20,828 nt of DNA from a virus. Location: the IMG/VR virus record IMGVR_UViG_3300025889_001159, positions 1 through 20,828 of that record, one strand, 5' to 3'. The position numbers and the translations under genes are program-made. Shown here one piece after another: positions 10,501 through 16,354 of the stretch (position 1 is the first letter of the stretch; every line of letters starts with the position of its first letter). The notes under the pieces were generated by a model, which did not search any database, was not told where the DNA came from, and saw only the letters and a list, made by a program, of their open reading frames with translations.

Positions 10501-10793
10501 AACATCCAAACCGCGCTGACAGAATGCTGGTGGAGATTGCCTCACCTTTTTACAATATTGGCTACGATGAAGCAGGTAACGAAGTCGAATCCACCAACCA
10601 GGCAAAGCTGGAGTATTTGAGGGCTGTACACACCGAATACACCAGCCAAGCCAAAAGGCTGATGCTGCTGGAGTTCCCCGAATTGCAAGAGTTGGTTAAC
10701 CAGCGTGACGCTTTCAAAGCGCAGCAGAATCGCCTGCCACGCAACTTGCCCCTGTCAGATGAAACCAAGCGCAGCATCAAATACAACCAGTAA
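7572..10793 (+). CDS. Large internal virion / DNA-ejection protein (T7 gp16-like position)
   Basis: The 1073-aa protein is the last and largest of the ejection block, the place of gene 16 in T7 (1318 aa). The N-terminal 110 residues are charged. A Pro-rich linker (about residues 117-141) follows, then long helical regions. Residues about 609-628 (FGPLQFYKTPTQVVLRIQER) and a hydrophobic stretch at about 653-673, followed by the RRWLEKHQPYS and ERYDPLSGILA region, look like the C-terminal half I associate with podovirus internal virion proteins. I do not see the lytic transglycosylase motif that opens T7 gp16, so wall opening during entry may be carried by another protein. The ATG at 7572 is preceded by GGGA with 6-nt spacing. 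Function is inferred from position and resemblance. Confidence 0.72.
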   Translation: MAIERDISKRLDEIIPPASSTEAEQPMLADEAAQIANPLAPQEPEEGVQVAGLVSGLATAGKAMRAARRVQKEAPRAAVLYDQRATGQTIIPPKGKVETDAGLTDQQVVDKGVNELLQTPSPPDVPGITPTPAPPGTGVVPPVRIEQDVIYVEPASVTTLEKLKAAIAGAPTSGKPPNVRPNLDAISAEDDVKKLIYATTEVYKQWVDTQRQAGRTLDDIAQDALKMGDDAALRALIKRKPGDRPFLDFESLAARMAVLNLQQATKQLVQQAMTSGDPRTMISALKAMTFEGYVQSAQLGNMAETGRALAVGRLVVSPDKSRVANLQKTVEQLGIDDPARFADIDNPAQIIRDLGGMEMMRNAFKAYMALPNDSVRGVYTKHLARAALDSAAEIYQSALLSNPVTQGFNIVGTPIHALTLMAERGAAAVFTGDVARLNGVFAGLRAIPRYTRQALSAAAKGFMTEQASDMGSKFDAGSRLATKAENFGVAPDTYLGKGIDLLGQGTRLLGFRVLTTVDEGYKALLRGMELEMMASEAQSRAFMAKIADGATEAEAMKHSSAVYMRVLESPTSFDEAAEFARVVAFQDELPGKILKGIEPIIQHPLQRLFGPLQFYKTPTQVVLRIQERTPLAVLMPRFWKAVTNPANPGDRSLALAKLSMASLVAGAYMTIGADDDSTILTGYGPTNPAERRRWLEKHQPYSIGEKQEDGSYRWKSFERYDPLSGILAFWVDARDTMLKDDDPDSRENIALDVSLATMRYMTEAQPSVQTLAELSNTIGPSYEGETDKMERIMQIFAKHAADVGLTTGQAVVTGGLMPQSLTANLQRYLDPFKKSTVPSEQYDYLNIPGFRTNLRSGYEALAKARARIPYFADSAYQETNDWYEPVKIGTGDFRAFLPMRIIEKRFNGINAELEKIKGALPRISPSMNESMIKLNAQQFNRYKELVNYPNRSPFFANELFGKNYSDMTPEEKKIFKQHPNRADRMLVEIASPFYNIGYDEAGNEVESTNQAKLEYLRAVHTEYTSQAKRLMLLEFPELQELVNQRDAFKAQQNRLPRNLPLSDETKRSIKYNQ

Positions 10794-10804
10794 GGAATTG
10801 AATT

Positions 10805-12838
10805 ATGGCCGTCCCAATTTCTAATGTAACCCGCCGCGTGGTGTTTGCCGCCAGCGGTGTGGGGCCGTATGCGTTCACGTTTGAGATTCTTGCTCAGACC
10901 GATATCGCCGTTTACGAGGATGACACCCTGCTGACGTTGACCACCGACTACACGGTGACCATTAACGCCAACGGCACGGGTTCGATTACCCTGGTGTCCA
11001 GCCCCACCGGGTCACAGATATCAATTATCGGTGCCAGGGCGATTGAGCGTACCTCTGACTTTGTGACGGGTGGCGACTTCTTTGCCAACACACTCAACAC
11101 CGAACTGGATAGCCTAACTATCTTTGCCCAGCAAAACAGCGAGGCTGTGGCCCGCGCATTGTCTGCGCCGGAGACTGACCCGACCACGGTGAACATGACT
11201 TTGCCGAGGGCATCGGTGCGAGCCAACAAGACCCTGGCTTTTGACAGCAACGGCGACCCAGTTATCGGCGAGGTGATTGGCGACAACCGTGGCGATTGGG
11301 CTGCTGGCACCGCGTACAACAAGCGTGATATTGTCAAAGACACCAGCAACAACAACGTATATTTGGCAAACACGGCGCACACTTCTAGTGGCTCCCAGCC
11401 AATCAGCACCAATGCCGATGCAGCCAAATGGGATTTGTTGCTAGATGCTGCGTCAGCCGATGCAGCACAAGCGGCAGCGGAAGCCGCCCAGGCTGCGGCA
11501 GAGGCTGCTGAATCCAATGCAGAAGATTGGGCAACCAAGGTAGATGGTATTGTCGATTCAACTGACTATTCGGCCAAAGCATGGTCTATTGGTGGAACCG
11601 GCGTAACCGATACGGCCAGCCGTGGCGCTGCAAAAGAATGGGCGACCGAAACATCGGGTACGGTTGACGGCACCGAGTATTCATCCAAAGAATATGCACA
11701 GGGCACTCAGGCTGGTACTGGCGGCTCGGCGAAAGATTGGGCGATAGAAACAAGCACCAATGTCGATGGCGTTGACTATTCGTCAAAAGAGTATGCGGTA
11801 GGTACTCAAACGCGAGGCACCACCGGCTCATCCAAAGATTGGGCTACATATACCGGCGGCACCGTTAATGCCAGCGAATATTCTGCCAAAGAGTACGCGG
11901 TTGGCACAACGGCGACAGACGGGTCTGCAAAAGAGTGGGCAACCACTACTGGCGCTGCGGTGGCGGCTTCTGAATACTCGGCAAAAGAATATGCCCAGGG
12001 CACAACTGCAACTGGTGGCTCATCCAAACAATGGGCAACAACCACAGGCGCAGCAGTTAGCGGTGGTGAATATTCATCGAAAGAGTATGCTATTGGCACC
12101 ACAGTTGCTGCTGGCTCGGCAAAAGATTGGGCTACGATTACTGGCAACCTAGTCGATGCAACCGAATACTCTGCCAAGGAATACGCCAGCGGTGACCTGA
12201 CTGCAACTGGCGGCTCTGCCAAGGCTTGGGCAGAAGATGCCTCCAGCCCTGATGGCACCACAACCAAAAGCGCCAAGACCTGGGCGGCAGAGTCGGCCTC
12301 ATCTGCAAGCGATGCTCAAACCGCCCAGGCTGCCGCTGAAGCTGCCCTGGCCTCATTCAACGCAACATATCTTGGGGCGCAGGCAAGCGACCCAAGCGTG
12401 GACAATGAGGGTGACCCGGTAACGGCTGGCGATTGGTACTTCAATACCAGCAGCAATATCAGCCGTATCTACAACGGCAGCACCTGGTCGAATGTATCGC
12501 TTGACCCAGCCATTGTGGTGGCCAAGACCAGCAGCACGGGCGCGGCGGTTCTGCCGGTTGGCAGCACGGCCCAGCGTGACGGCTCACCCGTCCAGGGCTA
12601 TCTGCGGTTCAACTCAGACGATGGCGCGTTCGAGGGTTATAACGGGAGCGCCTGGGCACCAGTAGGTGGCGGGGCAACAGGTGGCGGCAGCGATGCGGTG
12701 TTCGTCGAGAACGACCAAACCGTGACCACCAACTACACAATCCCAGCAACCAAGAACGCGATGTCCACCGGGCCGGTAACCATTGACTCAGGCGTCACGG
12801 TCACGGTGTCCACCGGCTCACGCTACGTTGTAATTTAA
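10805..12838 (+). CDS. Tail fibre protein with T7 gp17-type N-terminus and eight-repeat shaft
   Basis: The 677-aa fibre has four parts. Residues 1-160 match the T7-type tail-fibre attachment domain (opening VPISNVTRRVVFAASGVGPY, with YAFTFEIL and TVTINANGTGSITL). Residues about 165-212 look like a small beta carbohydrate-binding or chitinase-A-like segment (GDWAAGTAYNKRDIV). Residues about 213-240 are an Ala/Glu coiled coil. Residues about 239-497 are eight repeats of 30-38 aa with a K-x-W-A ... Y-S-A-K-E-Y-A consensus. The C-terminus (FVENDQTVTTNYTIPATKNA then GPVTIDSGVTVTV) is a tag that recurs at the ends of phage fibre proteins. AAGGA lies 8 nt before the ATG. It likely trimerises and anchors or presents the adhesins encoded next. 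Confidence 0.88.
   Translation: MAVPISNVTRRVVFAASGVGPYAFTFEILAQTDIAVYEDDTLLTLTTDYTVTINANGTGSITLVSSPTGSQISIIGARAIERTSDFVTGGDFFANTLNTELDSLTIFAQQNSEAVARALSAPETDPTTVNMTLPRASVRANKTLAFDSNGDPVIGEVIGDNRGDWAAGTAYNKRDIVKDTSNNNVYLANTAHTSSGSQPISTNADAAKWDLLLDAASADAAQAAAEAAQAAAEAAESNAEDWATKVDGIVDSTDYSAKAWSIGGTGVTDTASRGAAKEWATETSGTVDGTEYSSKEYAQGTQAGTGGSAKDWAIETSTNVDGVDYSSKEYAVGTQTRGTTGSSKDWATYTGGTVNASEYSAKEYAVGTTATDGSAKEWATTTGAAVAASEYSAKEYAQGTTATGGSSKQWATTTGAAVSGGEYSSKEYAIGTTVAAGSAKDWATITGNLVDATEYSAKEYASGDLTATGGSAKAWAEDASSPDGTTTKSAKTWAAESASSASDAQTAQAAAEAALASFNATYLGAQASDPSVDNEGDPVTAGDWYFNTSSNISRIYNGSTWSNVSLDPAIVVAKTSSTGAAVLPVGSTAQRDGSPVQGYLRFNSDDGAFEGYNGSAWAPVGGGATGGGSDAVFVENDQTVTTNYTIPATKNAMSTGPVTIDSGVTVTVSTGSRYVVI
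11519..12297 (+). repeat. Eight in-frame repeats of the tail-fibre shaft
   Basis: Units of about 90-115 bp each encode K/E-x-WA-x(7-9)-V-x(3)-EYSAKEYA-x-GT-x(4)-GGSA. The middle units are the most alike (for example KEWATTTGAAV and KQWATTTGAAV), while the first and last are degenerate. In the DNA, stretches such as GGCTCGGC(G/A)AAAGATTGGGC recur, so unit number could change by recombination. The period fits a trimeric shaft with regularly spaced Trp and Tyr layers, which is inference. Confidence 0.85.
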
Positions 12839-12848
12839 GGAAACGATT

Positions 12849-13349
12849 ATGGCTCTTGAATTAAATGGAACAACAGGCGTCAGCCTAGTACAGGATGGCG
12901 TTATTACTGATGCCAACCTGCCAGCGGGTAGTGTGTTGCAAGTTGTATCTACTTCTTATTCAACTGCATTTACGACTTCATCTGGAAGTGCGGCAGATAC
13001 TGGTCTTTCTGTAACCATAACTCCAACAAGCGCAACAAGTAAAATTTTAATTCTTCTGTCTCAACAAATGTATATTTATAACGGCGGGGGAGACTCTGGA
13101 GTAATAATTAATATTTTAAGAAACGGAACGAATTTGATTGGGGTGAATGGTCATTCGGGGTATATTGCTGGATACAATTCAAGTAACCCTGAAATTGTTT
13201 GGAATTTGCCAATTACATTCCTTGACTCCCCAGCAACAACTTCTGCATTGACATACAAAACGCAAGCAGCGGCAACTGTTGGTGCAACTGTCATTACCTG
13301 TTGGAACAGCAACGCATCAACAATTACTGTCATGGAGATTGCAGCATGA
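12849..13349 (+). CDS. Adhesin-like tail protein 1 (beta-sandwich tip)
   Basis: The 166-aa protein opens with a phage fibre tag (LELNGTTGVSLVQDGVI, then LPAGSVLQVVST). About 125 residues of Thr/Ser/Ile-rich beta structure follow, ending NASTITVMEIA, the style of small phage jelly-roll or beta-sandwich tips. AAGGAAA lies upstream of the ATG. After about position 12940 the DNA becomes clearly richer in A and T than the fibre gene upstream. It ends in an ATGA overlap with a small assembly-factor-like gene, so it appears to be the adhesin of the first couple. Receptor binding is inferred from composition and context; there is no enzymatic motif. Confidence 0.7.
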   Translation: MALELNGTTGVSLVQDGVITDANLPAGSVLQVVSTSYSTAFTTSSGSAADTGLSVTITPTSATSKILILLSQQMYIYNGGGDSGVIINILRNGTNLIGVNGHSGYIAGYNSSNPEIVWNLPITFLDSPATTSALTYKTQAAATVGATVITCWNSNASTITVMEIAA

Positions 13350-13630
13350 ACAAAGTAGACGCACTTCAATCTCTACGCCCCGGTGCTGAATGGGTTCTAC
13401 GCGGTGACGACCTTGAGTGGCTAGACGCCAACCAAACGCAACCAACTGAAGCAGAAATTGCAGCAGAGGTTACCCGTTTAGAAGCAGACTACGCTGCCAA
13501 ACAATACCAGCGTGACCGTGCCGCAGCATACCCGTCCATCCCTGACCAGCTAGACCAAATCTATCACGAAGGCATTGACGCTTGGAAAGCGACCATTGCT
13601 GCCGTTAAACAGGAGTACCCCAAGCCATGA
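13346..13630 (+). CDS. Small tail-fibre assembly/chaperone-like protein 1 (XkdW-type)
   Basis: The 94-aa acidic protein has an N-terminal RPGAEWVLRGDDLEWLD segment and a PTEAEIAAEVTRLEADY helix. Its C-terminal segment, YPSIPDQLDQIYHEGIDAWK, is a block found in many small phage proteins next to fibre genes (XkdW-like or fibre-assembly type). The ATG at 13346 is chosen because it forms ATGA with the stop of the adhesin gene; an in-frame start further upstream would lie inside that gene. It probably helps fold or attach the preceding adhesin, or the following one. The ATGA at its own end links it to the next adhesin. Confidence 0.75.
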   Translation: MNKVDALQSLRPGAEWVLRGDDLEWLDANQTQPTEAEIAAEVTRLEADYAAKQYQRDRAAAYPSIPDQLDQIYHEGIDAWKATIAAVKQEYPKP

Positions 13631-14196
13631 GTAAAGTAGCAATTCAGGGCAACGCCAGCGGTACTGGTACGCTGACCATTGCCGCGCCCAACACGAACAC
13701 CGACAGGACGTTGACGCTGCCTGATGAGGCGGGGACTGTGTTGACCTCTGCAAGTACAACGGTGCTGCCTAAAGGTGTGCCAGCGTTTAGTTATGAAAAC
13801 ACTACTGCACAAAGCATAAGTTCTACAACTTGGACAAAAGTAACAGTCAACTCACAGATTTTTGATACAACTACTTCAGACTTTTCAAGCAGTCGGTTTA
13901 CTGCTTCTGTTGCTGGTTATTATCAATTTAATGGTTGTATACGTTGCAATGGTTCGTCAATCACCGGCATCGTAGTGGCGCTTTACAAAAACGGTAGCAT
14001 TGTTGGGTATGGAAATGCTTTGCAATCATCTGTACCAGCCGACAACTCAATTAATGTATCAGAAATTATTTACCTAAACGGCTCTACTGATTATGTTGAA
14101 CTTTACGGATTTATTATTGGAACTAGCCCAAACTTTGCATACGCAGCAGCGGGCGCAAATGCTAGATTTTCAGGCGCGTTAATGGGGGCGGCATGA
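13627..14196 (+). CDS. Adhesin-like tail protein 2 (C1q-like tip)
   Basis: The 189-aa protein has two parts. Residues 1-50 are a GC-rich-coded phage tag (ASGTGTLTIAAPNTNTDRTL, then TLPDEAGTVLTSAS) that recurs in many tail proteins. Residues about 53-189 look like a C1q/TNF-like beta sandwich: PAFSYENTTAQSISSTTWTK, then RFTASVAGYYQFNGCIR, KNGSIVGYG and a closing FSGALMG. C1q-like domains trimerise and bind ligands, which suits a fibre tip. The base composition drops sharply in G+C at about 13785, near the domain boundary. This is a sign that the tip was exchanged. It is linked on both sides by ATGA overlaps. Confidence 0.75.
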   Translation: MSKVAIQGNASGTGTLTIAAPNTNTDRTLTLPDEAGTVLTSASTTVLPKGVPAFSYENTTAQSISSTTWTKVTVNSQIFDTTTSDFSSSRFTASVAGYYQFNGCIRCNGSSITGIVVALYKNGSIVGYGNALQSSVPADNSINVSEIIYLNGSTDYVELYGFIIGTSPNFAYAAAGANARFSGALMGAA

Positions 14197-14357
14197 TGAC
14201 TCTATACGACAAAATCAAAGCACTTTATCCTGACCTGCAAGACGCAGATTTCTTGTACACCGTCGTGCTGCAAAACGATTTAGATGGTCGCGGTGACTAC
14301 ATCAAAGAGTGGAATCACCCAACCCTACCACGCCCGAGTGAGGAGCAACTAGCATGA
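14193..14357 (+). CDS. Small tail-fibre assembly-like protein 2 (XkdW-type, 54 aa)
   Basis: The product starts MMTLYDKIKALYPDLQDADF and continues with QNDLDGRGDYIKEW, then HPTLPRPSEEQLA at the end. YDKIKALYP together with the DG-G-DYI-W-HPTLP-P block is a pattern I recognise from XkdW-type proteins located after phage fibre genes. The ATG at 14193 forms ATGA with the adhesin stop; a second in-frame ATG follows at 14196, so the true product is 53 or 54 aa. The end makes ATGA with the next adhesin. It presumably serves the C1q-like adhesin before it. Confidence 0.8.
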   Translation: MMTLYDKIKALYPDLQDADFLYTVVLQNDLDGRGDYIKEWNHPTLPRPSEEQLA

Positions 14358-15490
14358 GTACCATAGCAGTCAACGCCATCACAGATGCCAGCGGCGGCAA
14401 CACGGCGTCAATCAACGGGGCAACGCCGACCACCGACAACACGATGGGTCGCAATCGTATCATCAATGGAGATATGCGGATTGATGCTAGGAACGCTGGT
14501 GCGAGTGTTGCGCTTACGGATGGATTGTATTTTGTTGACCGTTGGAAAGCGTCAATTTCTCAAACAAGTAAACTTACAGGTCAACAATCATCTACAGTAC
14601 CTGCTGGTTTTGTTAAATCGCTGTCTGCGACTGTAGGTACTGCATTTACTCCCGGCGCTGGTGACTACGCTGGTTTAGTCCAGCCGATTGAAGGCAATAA
14701 CGTATCTGATTTGAATTTTGGTTCAGCAGGTGCATCAACAGTTACATTGTCATTTTGGGTTCGCAGTTCTGTGACAGGAACCTACAGCGTTACTTTGCAT
14801 AATGCCGACCCAGCAAATAGAAGCTATGTAACGACATATGCAATCAATGCAGCAGACACTTGGGAGCAAAAGAGCGTAACAATTGCTGGCGATACTAGCG
14901 GGACTTGGGCAACAGATAATACTGCAAGCATTACGGCGTATTTTGCTTTGGGTATGGGTTCAACTTATGGTGGCGCTACCGCTAACACTTGGAACGCTTC
15001 TTTGAAGCTGGCTGCTACGGGACAAACTCAATGGGTGTCTACTGCTGGCGCAACCTTCTACCTCACAGGCGTCCAGCTTGAAGCAGGCAGCGTAGCCACC
15101 AGTTTTGAACGTAGGAGTTATGGGCAGGAGTTGGCGTTGTGTCAGCGGTATTATTATCGGATAAAAGGGTCAGATACCGCCCTTAATACGGGAATCGTGG
15201 GTGTTGGTTTTTCTCAATCCACCACTGCTGGGCGTTCTTTAATTAATTTTCCAGTAACTATGAGGTCATTTCCAAGCGCACTAGAACAAAGTGGAACTGC
15301 TTCACATTTTAGAATTATTGCTGGAAGTGCTGGGTCAATAACGTGTTCCGCTGTTCCAGTATTTAGTTCTGCTTCTACATTGTGTGGCGATATTTCATGG
15401 ACTGTTGCTTCTGCAGCAATCGCTAATCAAGGGGTGTATTTTGCATCTAATAATGCAAGCAGTTATCTCGCATGGAGTGCTGAATTATGA
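14354..15490 (+). CDS. Adhesin-like tail protein 3 (jelly-roll, carbohydrate-binding type)
   Basis: The 378-aa protein starts with a short tag (IAVNAITDASGGNTA), then GRNRIINGDMRIDARNAG (residues 32-49) and LYFVDRWKA, which open a jelly-roll domain common in phage tail proteins. Beta strands continue to FYLTGVQLEAG (235-245) and FERRSYGQELALCQRYYYR (about 251-269), a conserved junction after which a variable tip usually follows. Here the tip is residues about 270-378, coded by A+T-rich DNA. No depolymerase motif is seen. Its likely role is receptor or glycan binding. It is joined by ATGA to the genes before and after it. Confidence 0.8.
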   Translation: MSTIAVNAITDASGGNTASINGATPTTDNTMGRNRIINGDMRIDARNAGASVALTDGLYFVDRWKASISQTSKLTGQQSSTVPAGFVKSLSATVGTAFTPGAGDYAGLVQPIEGNNVSDLNFGSAGASTVTLSFWVRSSVTGTYSVTLHNADPANRSYVTTYAINAADTWEQKSVTIAGDTSGTWATDNTASITAYFALGMGSTYGGATANTWNASLKLAATGQTQWVSTAGATFYLTGVQLEAGSVATSFERRSYGQELALCQRYYYRIKGSDTALNTGIVGVGFSQSTTAGRSLINFPVTMRSFPSALEQSGTASHFRIIAGSAGSITCSAVPVFSSASTLCGDISWTVASAAIANQGVYFASNNASSYLAWSAEL

Positions 15491-15645
15491 TTTACAAAAT
15501 GCTACCTCGCCAAGAAGGCGAACCACAAATCTACGCCCGCATTGACGATGACGGCTTATGCCGCCTGACTTGCACAGAAGAACATCCACCGTTTCAAGAG
15601 TGGCTGGCAGAAGGCAACACGCCCGAACCGGCTGACGAGGTGTAA
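15487..15645 (+). CDS. Small tail-associated protein 3 (52 aa)
   Basis: The ATG overlaps the stop of adhesin 3 as ATGA. The product, 52 aa, begins MIYKMLPRQEGEPQIYARID and ends WLAEGNTPEPADEV. The WLAEGNTPEP ending is one I recognise from small phage proteins encoded next to fibre genes, so an assembly role like the other two small partners is likely. Two Cys residues lie in the middle (about residues 25 and 29). Its last codons GAGGTG also act as the ribosome site for the next gene. Confidence 0.75.
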   Translation: MIYKMLPRQEGEPQIYARIDDDGLCRLTCTEEHPPFQEWLAEGNTPEPADEV

Positions 15646-15647
15646 GC

Positions 15648-15866
15648 ATGGCGGCTGCGGATACTGATAACCGGCTGACCAGCCATGAGCAGATTTGCTC
15701 CGAGCGTTACCTGCGGCTCGAGGGCCGTATGGCCACGGTTGAGACGCGGCTCGATGGCGTGGACGCCAGGCTCAAGAAGATTGAGTCGGTCATTATTCGC
15801 TCGGTCGGCGCGCTGCTGGTCGGCATGGGTGGACTGATTGCCACGATTATTATGAAGGTTGGGTAA
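15648..15866 (+). CDS. Small coiled-coil membrane protein (XhlA-like, lysis-associated)
   Basis: The 72-aa protein has residues 12-46 as a charged helix with heptad-like leucine/valine spacing (RLEGRMATVETRLDGVDARL). One membrane segment follows at about 50-69 (a VII..VGALLVGMGGLIATII pattern). This architecture, with a cytoplasmic or periplasmic coiled coil and a C-terminal anchor, is that of XhlA-type phage proteins which assist holins. It opens the lysis block, and its stop overlaps the next start (TAATG). GAGGTG, the end of the previous gene, lies 5 nt before the ATG. The role is inferred from topology and place. Confidence 0.7.
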   Translation: MAAADTDNRLTSHEQICSERYLRLEGRMATVETRLDGVDARLKKIESVIIRSVGALLVGMGGLIATIIMKVG

Positions 15867-16354
15867 TGATTGACCCGGTGACCGCGTTTACCGTGGCCAC
15901 CGCCGCGTTCAACACCATCAAAAAAGCGGTGGAGGTTGGGCGTGAGGTCGAGGACGTCGCGTCCTATATCGGCAAGTTCTTTGGTGCCAAGGCAGACATA
16001 GTAAAGGCTGAAGAGAAAGCCAAGAACCCACCGATATTTAAGAGGCTGCTGGCTGCTGGCTCTGTCGAAGAAGAGGCGCTGCAAATCGTAGTGCAGCGGC
16101 AGAAGCTGGGCGAGATGGAGCGCGAGTTGCGTTCCCTGATTATCATGCGCTACGGCCAGGAAACGTACCTGGAGATGATGCGTATGCGGGAGCGTGTTGC
16201 CACAGAGCGCCGCCGTGCTGAACACTTGCAGGCATTGAAGCGCAAGACCCTGGCCATCAACGTGGCGCTGGGTCTGCTGACGCTGGGCTTGCTGTGGGGG
16301 CTGGCTGAACTGATATGGCTTTTGATGGAAATGGTGAGGGAACGCAATGCTTGA
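15866..16354 (+). CDS. Membrane-anchored helical protein of the lysis block (unknown)
   Basis: The 162-aa protein has a hydrophobic/amphipathic N-terminus (residues 3-24), a long charged helical region (about 40-128, many Glu, Arg and Lys) and one strong membrane segment near the C-terminus (about 129-154, rich in Leu and Trp). A tail-anchored coiled coil between an XhlA-like protein and a holin suggests a lysis accessory. Spanins of the Rz type normally carry the anchor at the N-terminus, so I do not call it a spanin. It overlaps the holin start by 8 nt. I do not recognise the family. Confidence 0.65.
   Translation: MIDPVTAFTVATAAFNTIKKAVEVGREVEDVASYIGKFFGAKADIVKAEEKAKNPPIFKRLLAAGSVEEEALQIVVQRQKLGEMERELRSLIIMRYGQETYLEMMRMRERVATERRRAEHLQALKRKTLAINVALGLLTLGLLWGLAELIWLLMEMVRERNA

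Follow-up and report, generated by a model that had tools for sequence, protein, structure and literature searches.

In the Alteromonas phages A5, V22 and P24, cognate tail-fibre chaperones resemble intramolecular chaperone domains and have been proposed to cap the fibre tip transiently (PMC10579305), and the cobavirus tail module encodes three tail assembly chaperones (PMC6775973). Here, we analyzed a window of 20,828 nucleotides from a virus (IMG/VR record IMGVR_UViG_3300025889_001159), in which a gene for a 677-aa fibre is followed by three adhesin genes, each with a small partner gene behind it. The locus is best explained as an array of genes for receptor-binding proteins in an aquatic, short-tailed (T7-like) phage. 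A base-by-base check of the six ORFs confirmed the first-pass annotation that they are joined by five ATGA overlaps, which lie at positions 13346, 13627, 14193, 14354 and 15487 (Table 1).

Table 1. Features of the adhesin array and of the fibre gene that precedes it
Feature	ORF	Position	Strand	Basis or remark
677-aa fibre, whole gene		10805-12838	+	
C-terminal end domain of the 677-aa fibre; common connector preceding the first adhesin		12605-12838	+	DNA 97% identical to L164, fibre shaft differing
Adhesin 1: shared head (residues about 1-29) and predicted TNF/C1q-like jelly-roll tip, C-terminus ITVMEIAA	12849-13349 (166 aa)	12849-13349	+	
Partner 1, N-half: helix, beta-hairpin, long helix	13346-13630 (94 aa)	13346-13525	+	AF2 model, pLDDT 96.3
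Partner 1, swappable tail AAYPSIPDQLDQIYHEGIDAWKATIAAVKQEYPKP	as above	13526-13630	+	DNA 92% identical to L096 over 13526-13633
Adhesin 2, head (residues 1-40)	13627-14196 (189 aa)	13627-13745	+	Heads 68-95% identical carry different tips and different partners
Adhesin 2, C1q-like tip	as above	13746-14196	+	Profile against solved structures
Partner 2, XkdW family	14193-14357 (54 aa)	14193-14357	+	PF09636, 34.7 bits (cut-off 24.6)
Adhesin 3, head (residues 1-51)	14354-15490 (378 aa)	14354-14508	+	Identity to L164 ends at 14508
Adhesin 3, body and tip, C-terminus YLAWSAEL	as above	14509-15490	+	PHROG, Pfam, homology profile
Partner 3, N-half of RIDDD type	15487-15645 (52 aa)	15487-15597	+	Last 10 residues of the tip predict the type (balanced accuracy 0.94)
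Partner 3, swappable tail EWLAEGNTPEPADEV	as above	15598-15645	+	DNA 96-98% identical to L178 and L102

All five junctions inside the set are 4-nt overlaps compared with 0/14 elsewhere in the window, with a single gene caller used throughout (Fisher p = 9e-5). Because 22% of adjacent gene pairs in relatives have a 4-nt overlap, we regard such an overlap in itself as ordinary. The end of each upstream ORF also contains a ribosome-binding-like motif, and the overlap together with this embedded motif would couple translation of the partner to that of its adhesin. We note that the 94-aa ORF has an alternative upstream TTG start, giving 109 aa, and that an alternative upstream GTG start of the lysin ORF would give a 4-nt overlap. 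The assembly is backed by the independent contigs L164 (97% over 12605-14508) and L083 (100% over 14875-15900). A repeat search around the locus returned only fibre-shaft repeats and short matches, and no template/variable repeat pair of a diversity-generating retroelement. This fibre end domain is present in 90 relatives, and in 87 of these a large or adhesin gene comes next.

The AF2 model of adhesin 1 (pLDDT 85.4) matched the TNF-like lectin PLTL (9ib7) with Z 15.5 over 127 residues at 2.2 Å, and C1q domains with Z of about 10; based on this model, we predict that the protein is a TNF/C1q-like jelly roll. Its tip class matches the C-terminal residues 464-658 of orf22 in PDB 9EFK (E 8.7e-23), and the protein belongs to PHROG 6942 (tail fiber). 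For adhesin 2, the earlier description as C1q-like was borne out by the family profile, which matched cerebellin, collagen X and C1q structures (cerebellin-1 chain, 5kca, best E 4.6e-11; collagen X, 1gr3, 8.3e-8), while the 189-aa protein itself scored 13.0 bits against Pfam C1q, below the cut-off of 23.7. Moreover, the profiles of the 166-aa protein and of the 189-aa family match each other with a probability of 96.7%. Together, the fold match and the profile match rule out for adhesins 1 and 2 the suggestion that the three adhesins have three different folds. Adhesin 3 consists of a CBM-like middle, a conserved linker (15047-15157) and a hypervariable distal portion, and was assigned to PHROG 4492 (tail fiber C-term; 6e-52), with a sub-threshold match to Pfam GH43_C. 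Peptidase_S74 was matched by none of the three adhesins in the window.

The label XkdW-type, previously given to the partners, applies by Pfam to the 54-aa protein, the family of which has a mean column identity of 68%, but not to the 94- and 52-aa proteins. Specifically, the 94-aa ORF had no match to PF09636 above the gathering score, 0/35 members of its family matched XkdW, and it falls in PHROG 9114 (unknown function); the best PDB match of the p94 model was XkdW (2hg7), and this match was weak (Z 4.5, 51 residues, 3.2 Å). The p52 family has neither an annotated relative nor a Pfam match, and a tblastn search of cultured phages with the 52-aa protein returned no homologue. Phage_tail_APC (PF16778) was matched by none of the three partners in the window, and no PDB homologue of p94 or p52 was convincing. 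Among relatives there are hybrid partners, in which the tail behind a p94 N-half is a Pfam Phage_tail_APC domain (L332, L356) or an XkdW N-half carries the IDAWK tail of the p94 family (L349).

In a comparison of hundreds of related viral loci, tips ending in AEL were followed by p52-type partners (86/89), tips ending in MEIA by p94-type partners (82/96), KAWV tips by p61 (23/34) and C1q tips by XkdW partners (7/12); when loci were retrieved via the adhesin instead of the partner, p52 still followed 59 of the 62 AEL tips. The tip was informative beyond the head (1.55 bits versus 0.80 with partners permuted within head class, p < 0.0005), and with one head type held constant, MEIA was paired with p94 in 30/32, C1q with XkdW in 6/8, KAWV with p61 in 5/7 and S74 with no partner in 4/5 cases. 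Exceptions were P-SSP7, with three consecutive MEIA-type tips and then a single p94, and L330 and L331, in which a MEIA-type tip has no partner. Judged from these sequence comparisons, the adhesin-plus-partner couples are real and class-matched. Conversely, all 10 scanned coiled-coil-ended adhesins carried a Peptidase_S74 chaperone, and the small partner was absent in 23/28 cases of this class. This complementarity with self-chaperoned adhesins, which comparison of relatives establishes together with the class coupling, fits partners that are trans-acting tail-fibre chaperones. As is expected of tail-fibre assembly chaperones, the partner genes lie directly behind the adhesins and are matched to the tip class.

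Our working hypothesis, which we consider likely, is that the locus encodes an array of adhesins with tip-class-matched chaperones acting in trans, and that recombination renews the tips by way of four conserved joints, i.e. head/tip, tip end/partner start, partner N-half/tail, and tail/next head. Each adhesin would combine a conserved N-terminal head, probably docking on the fibre, with a variable C-terminal lectin-like tip, and three such tips may be displayed simultaneously. The small gene behind it would supply an assembly chaperone of the XkdW/Phage_tail_APC kind for that tip class, with an N-half that matches the tip class and is probably the part that binds the C-terminal strand of the tip, and a C-terminal tail that is exchanged independently of the tip. 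The assembly-factor role assigned to the partners in the first-pass annotation fits the complementarity with S74 adhesins at the level of classes, but not as one-to-one dedication.

T-even gp38 adhesins stay on the virion as tip subunits. The partners might similarly be stable structural subunits of the tip that remain on the virion and are themselves involved in host recognition, which would account equally for the class coupling and the compact predicted fold; along the same line, point mutations in an XkdW-like gene of the Bacillus phages Sam46/112 alter plaque type (PMC8190038). We consider this unlikely: conservation is higher in the partners than in the tips, which is not the pattern of receptor-contacting parts; most adhesins that carry an S74 chaperone of their own lack a partner; Phage_tail_APC tails occur on related p94 N-halves; and solved structures include no convincing p94 or p52 relative.

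We also considered which part of the partner follows the tip. The N-half was informative on the tip (H decreasing from 2.66 to 0.73 bits; 122/145 correct) while the tail was not (95/157 correct versus 97/157 for the majority class), and the tail class of partner 1 occurs behind 15 tip classes. Using leave-one-out nearest neighbours, the last 10 tip residues in the AEL class predicted the N-half with the accuracy given in Table 1 (null 0.49, p 0.001) but not the tail (0.49, p 0.56), and the adhesin head also held some signal (0.69). A regular-expression version of this test gave an odds ratio of 69 and is not relied on because it was composed after examples had been seen. In the MEIA class, the tip's end did not predict the three partner N-half families (0.39, p 0.12), whereas the adhesin head did (0.66), and therefore any code there would be at class level only. 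Within-class co-divergence was weak in AEL (Mantel rho 0.35) and absent in MEIA (0.06, p 0.15), and unsupervised tip clusters gave mostly weak or no signal on the partner halves, probably because the clusters were unbalanced. A further idea, possible but rather doubtful, is that each partner works as a two-ended adaptor, whose N-half reads a ~10-residue C-terminal address of a tip class and whose lineage-set tail docks to a constant element such as the fibre end domain, the next head or the assembly machinery. If so, any tip could be mounted on any phage by exchange of tip plus N-half between four standard joints, amounting to a combinatorial parts system that spans unrelated aquatic phages.

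The conservation at the junctions bears on whether the coupling could be purely genetic, with small genes of general protein function hitch-hiking via stop/start overlaps and embedded ribosome-binding sites. The C-terminal glutamate codon of MEIA tips is GAG in 78/86 cases versus 58/233 elsewhere, so that part of the MEIA C-terminal conservation serves the ribosome-binding site; a strong ribosome-binding motif is present in 87/96 MEIA junctions, and the frequency of 4-nt overlaps among all adjacent pairs points in the same direction. However, the EL ending is invariant both with (45/46) and without an overlap (38/40), and the constraint is therefore on the protein, so that conservation purely as a ribosome-binding site explains part of MEIA and fails for EL. 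Moreover, different tips on the same head type have different partners, and the tip is tracked by the N-half and not by the tail although the junction is unchanged. Purely genetic coupling is, therefore, very improbable.

In relatives, couples recur across many genomes and arrays are gained, lost and reshuffled. L183 retains the order MEIA-p94-C1q-XkdW-AEL on another backbone, and L164 has a multi-gene block at 97% DNA identity in a phage with other upstream tail genes. To this extent, the reading as interchangeable cassettes first proposed is supported, and an exchange of whole pairs, each adhesin moving with a dedicated factor and with borders at the ATGA junctions, would account for these patterns. 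The borders, however, lie inside genes. DNA homology begins inside the last ~30 nt of adhesins 1 and 3, and behind the head of adhesin 2 it drops from ~26 loci to 1-2. Partner tails are 92-99% identical in DNA while N-halves and tips are near background; the N-half of partner 1 is at background in L096, and L178 and L102 share their tail with partner 3 but have N-halves of the other type. Because adhesin heads swap apart from tips and partner tails apart from N-halves, the joints are inside both genes; at the sequence level, this modularity and its breakpoints are established. Partners at least 80% identical followed tips less than 50% identical in 39 comparisons for MEIA and 19 for AEL, and the reverse case (similar tips, dissimilar partners) occurred in 0 and 0. 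Thus, the couples are not swapped strictly as units, the partners are not dedicated one-to-one, and gene-bounded one-to-one couples are ruled out by the breakpoints; whole-pair exchange, contradicted in its strict form, is hardly tenable.

These results imply that the unit of exchange in adhesin arrays is not the gene, and they locate natural recombination cut sites in such arrays, which matters for metagenomic host-recognition genes. They also suggest a likely role for unannotated small-protein families of many aquatic phages, namely PHROG 9114 and the 52-aa family, and provide a simple test of chaperone recognition in that the last tip residues predict the partner half used.

The hypervariable host-recognition regions of marine metaviromic islands likewise contain carbohydrate-binding, C1q, tail fibre, XkdW and tail fibre assembly genes, whereas the gene table lists XkdW with unknown function and tip-partner pairing was not found in the sections consulted (PMC3909814). 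The 54-aa protein is an XkdW protein and the hybrids link the p94 family to both XkdW and Phage_tail_APC, although neither Pfam model recognizes the 94- or the 52-aa protein. Peptidase_S74 adhesins occupy the same array positions and have heads in common with partner-bearing adhesins, but the chaperone is within the adhesin, a separate partner is usually absent, and the window contains none. Three consecutive couples are also present in the Methylophilales phage MEP402 (OP830907), in which an A378-type adhesin and then a 53-aa gene come after a p94-type partner, and in the Lentibacter phage ICBM2 (MF431616), with partners annotated as tail assembly chaperones; both differ in having other tips and mostly 1-nt overlaps, and the MEP402 partners are annotated as hypothetical. 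As in the Alteromonas phages A5, V22 and P24 (PMC10579305), a small putative chaperone gene lies beside its fibre in a module common to unrelated phages, but there a single fibre-chaperone pair is present, whereas here three couples are stacked, the candidate chaperones have 52-94 aa, and the partner halves are exchanged separately.

The window (20,828 bases of an IMG/VR virus record) has a T7-like order of tail and internal-protein genes, in which the gene for the 677-aa fibre is followed by six small-to-medium ORFs and then by small membrane, holin and lysin genes. All six ORFs (adhesins 1 to 3, each with its own small partner behind it) and their five ATGA junctions are exactly as the first-pass annotation described them. 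Four-nucleotide overlaps occur at 5/5 junctions inside the set and at 0/14 elsewhere in the window (p = 9e-5); because 22% of neighbouring gene pairs of related phages have one, such an overlap is ordinary for tightly packed phage genes. Third-position G+C is 0.15-0.4 in most bins of the regions coding for adhesin tips (C-terminal parts), below the heads (N-terminal parts) of adhesins 2 and 3 (0.55-0.85), partners (about 0.5) and backbone genes.

The AF2 model of adhesin 1 (166 aa; pLDDT 85) has the TNF-like bacterial lectins PLTL (Z 15.5) and BC2L-C (Z 14.8) as closest solved folds, with C1q domains at a Z of about 10, and its class matches the C-terminal 195 residues of solved PDB 9EFK orf22 (E 8.7e-23). 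In that 18-chain entry the domain lies at the protein's end, and the entry could reveal the position of an adhesin-1-type tip on a virion. Adhesin 2 (189 aa) belongs to the C1q family (E 4.6e-11), and adhesin 3 (378 aa) is the end of tail-fibre family PHROG 4492, with a weak carbohydrate-binding-like match in its middle. Partner 2 (54 aa) is XkdW, partner 3 (p52, 52 aa) had no match among the annotated families searched, and partner 1 (p94, 94 aa) falls in PHROG 9114, a family of unknown function; its very confident model (pLDDT 96; helix, hairpin, long helix, helical tail) has XkdW as its best, weak, structural match (Z 4.5). In the related loci L332 and L356, p94-type N-halves are fused to Phage_tail_APC tails, and in L349 an XkdW N-half is fused to the p94 tail. 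Through these hybrids, partners 1 and 2 of the window are linked to proteins annotated as tail assembly chaperones.

The fibre shaft has repeats of about 32 aa, and its motif GSAKDWAT...EYSAKEYA is encoded by six direct repeats of ~96-102 nt. In L003, a near-identical relative (gp12 98% identical), the fibre DNA matches only up to about residue 233, behind which the shafts differ; therefore, the shaft is exchanged too. The C-terminal end domain (VTVSSGSRYVVI) terminates very different shafts in relatives and is also encoded by itself, as a 71-72-aa protein placed after the fibre and before the first adhesin; a role as constant docking platform or as chain extender is possible.

Coordinates of features in the window and in related loci
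Feature	Window	Relatives
Adhesins 1, 2 and 3	12849-13349; 13627-14196; 14354-15490	
Fibre DNA match to near-identical relative	10700-11503	L003 14156-14959
Fibre-shaft direct repeats	11624-12186	
VTVSSGSRYVVI end domain (examples in relatives)	12605-12838	L086 594-812; L165 4274-4489
Stretch shared with L164	12605-14508	
KAWVNF...IFR adhesin and two small genes		L086 1187-1998; L165 5282-6525; L265 1340-2424
P-SSP7 adhesins and p94-type partner		L326 3074-5794
~370-aa NILRAQGYVHLPEFLDKENC protein		L087 8213-9331; L092 8895-10001

Several hundred IMG/VR loci, many of them metagenomic fragments, were gathered with gp12, the gp16-like 1073-aa protein, the 162-aa pre-holin protein, p94 and the three adhesins as queries, and cultured phages were added; we called all genes ourselves with one dynamic-programming caller, and dealt with kinship by discarding duplicates and near neighbours, not with a phylogenetic model. 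When adhesins were classed by their C-terminal 90 residues and the genes behind them by family, tips ending in AEL were followed by p52 (86/89), MEIA tips by p94 (82/96), C1q tips by XkdW (7/12) and KAWV tips by p61 (23/34), while coiled-coil-ended adhesins had no small partner (23/28) and fibre ends preceded a large gene (87/90). The MEIA figure is inflated because p94 fetched many of the loci; the AEL figure is not, since adhesin-fetched loci gave 59/62, and incidental MEIA tips in those loci all had p94 (8/8). Given the head, the tip still contributed strong information on the partner (1.55 bits vs 0.80 with partners permuted within head class, p < 0.0005); given the tip, the head contributed little (p 0.04). 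Loci fetched with adhesin 2, many sharing its head only, carried C1q, MEIA, S74 and other tips, each kind with its own partner kind or none; Peptidase_S74 was found in 10/10 coiled-coil adhesins scanned. Behind KAWVNF...IFR-tipped adhesins lie two successive small genes, of YPNDEGG and KAKGIAHDKRRA type, usually across a gap rather than an overlap. The well-studied cyanophage P-SSP7 combines four MEIA-type adhesins with a single p94-type partner, which may serve several tips.

Within the AEL class, leave-one-out nearest-neighbour prediction with close relatives excluded reached a balanced accuracy of 0.94 (null 0.49) for the partner N-half type (RIDD or PFD) when given the last ten tip residues, falling to 0.84 for the last 20, 0.80 for residues -60 to -20 and 0.69 for the head. 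The tip failed to predict the partner tail in this test (0.49), which the head predicted weakly (0.69). Whether or not the genes overlap, the EL ending hardly varies, and the last residues of the AEL tip are a candidate recognition signal for the partner N-half. In the MEIA class, whose ending is in part accounted for by an embedded ribosome-binding site, the three N-half families followed the head (0.66) and were not predicted from the tip end (0.39, same test); therefore, MEIA coupling holds at class level only.

Partners at least 80% identical stood behind tips less than 50% identical in 39 MEIA and 19 AEL within-class comparisons, and the reverse case occurred in none of them. In a set of 157 partners that share tails, knowing the N-half lowered the uncertainty about the tip from 2.66 to 0.73 bits (122/145 correct); the tail predicted the tip in 95/157, no better than the 97/157 reached by guessing the commonest class. 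The partners of L338, L350, L356 and L332 have tail DNA 92-99% identical, N-halves near background in all pairs except L332-L356, and tips near background in every pair. In tip bodies, DNA homology to relatives drops to 1-3 loci. It reaches about 20-26 loci at the heads of adhesins 2 and 3, about 30 over p94 together with the final 30 nt of adhesin 1, and about 36 over p52 together with the final 30 nt of adhesin 3, the peaks over p94 and parts of adhesin 3 arising partly from how loci were selected. As read from these sequences, partners are two-part, couples are not one-to-one and exchange is not gene-bounded.

Arrays differ greatly even where the neighbouring 162-aa gene is 80-100% identical between phages. 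L164 is 97% identical to the window over a stretch that stops within adhesin 3 where its head ends, despite different upstream tail genes, and in L183 a different backbone carries the genes in the window's order, MEIA-p94-C1q-XkdW-AEL. In several relatives, the adhesin array includes a ~370-aa protein (NILRAQGYVHLPEFLDKENC...), which looks oxygenase-like by eye, directly upstream of the gene for the 162-aa pre-holin protein.

The suggestion that adhesins and dedicated assembly factors form interchangeable cassettes thus holds at the level of tip class, but it fails on borders, as breakpoints fall inside genes, and on exclusivity, as near-identical partners accompany divergent tips. At the sequence level, tip-partner coupling is association, which is not contact, and three tips on one particle, from three intact couples, are plausible. 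Three couples are also present in each of the cultured phages MEP402 and ICBM2; for cobaviruses, a variable tail-fibre region and three tail assembly chaperones are reported (PMC6775973), and the cognate chaperones of Alteromonas phage fibres are similar to intramolecular chaperone domains (PMC10579305). We conclude that the locus varies the known arrangement of fibre plus chaperone in a new way.
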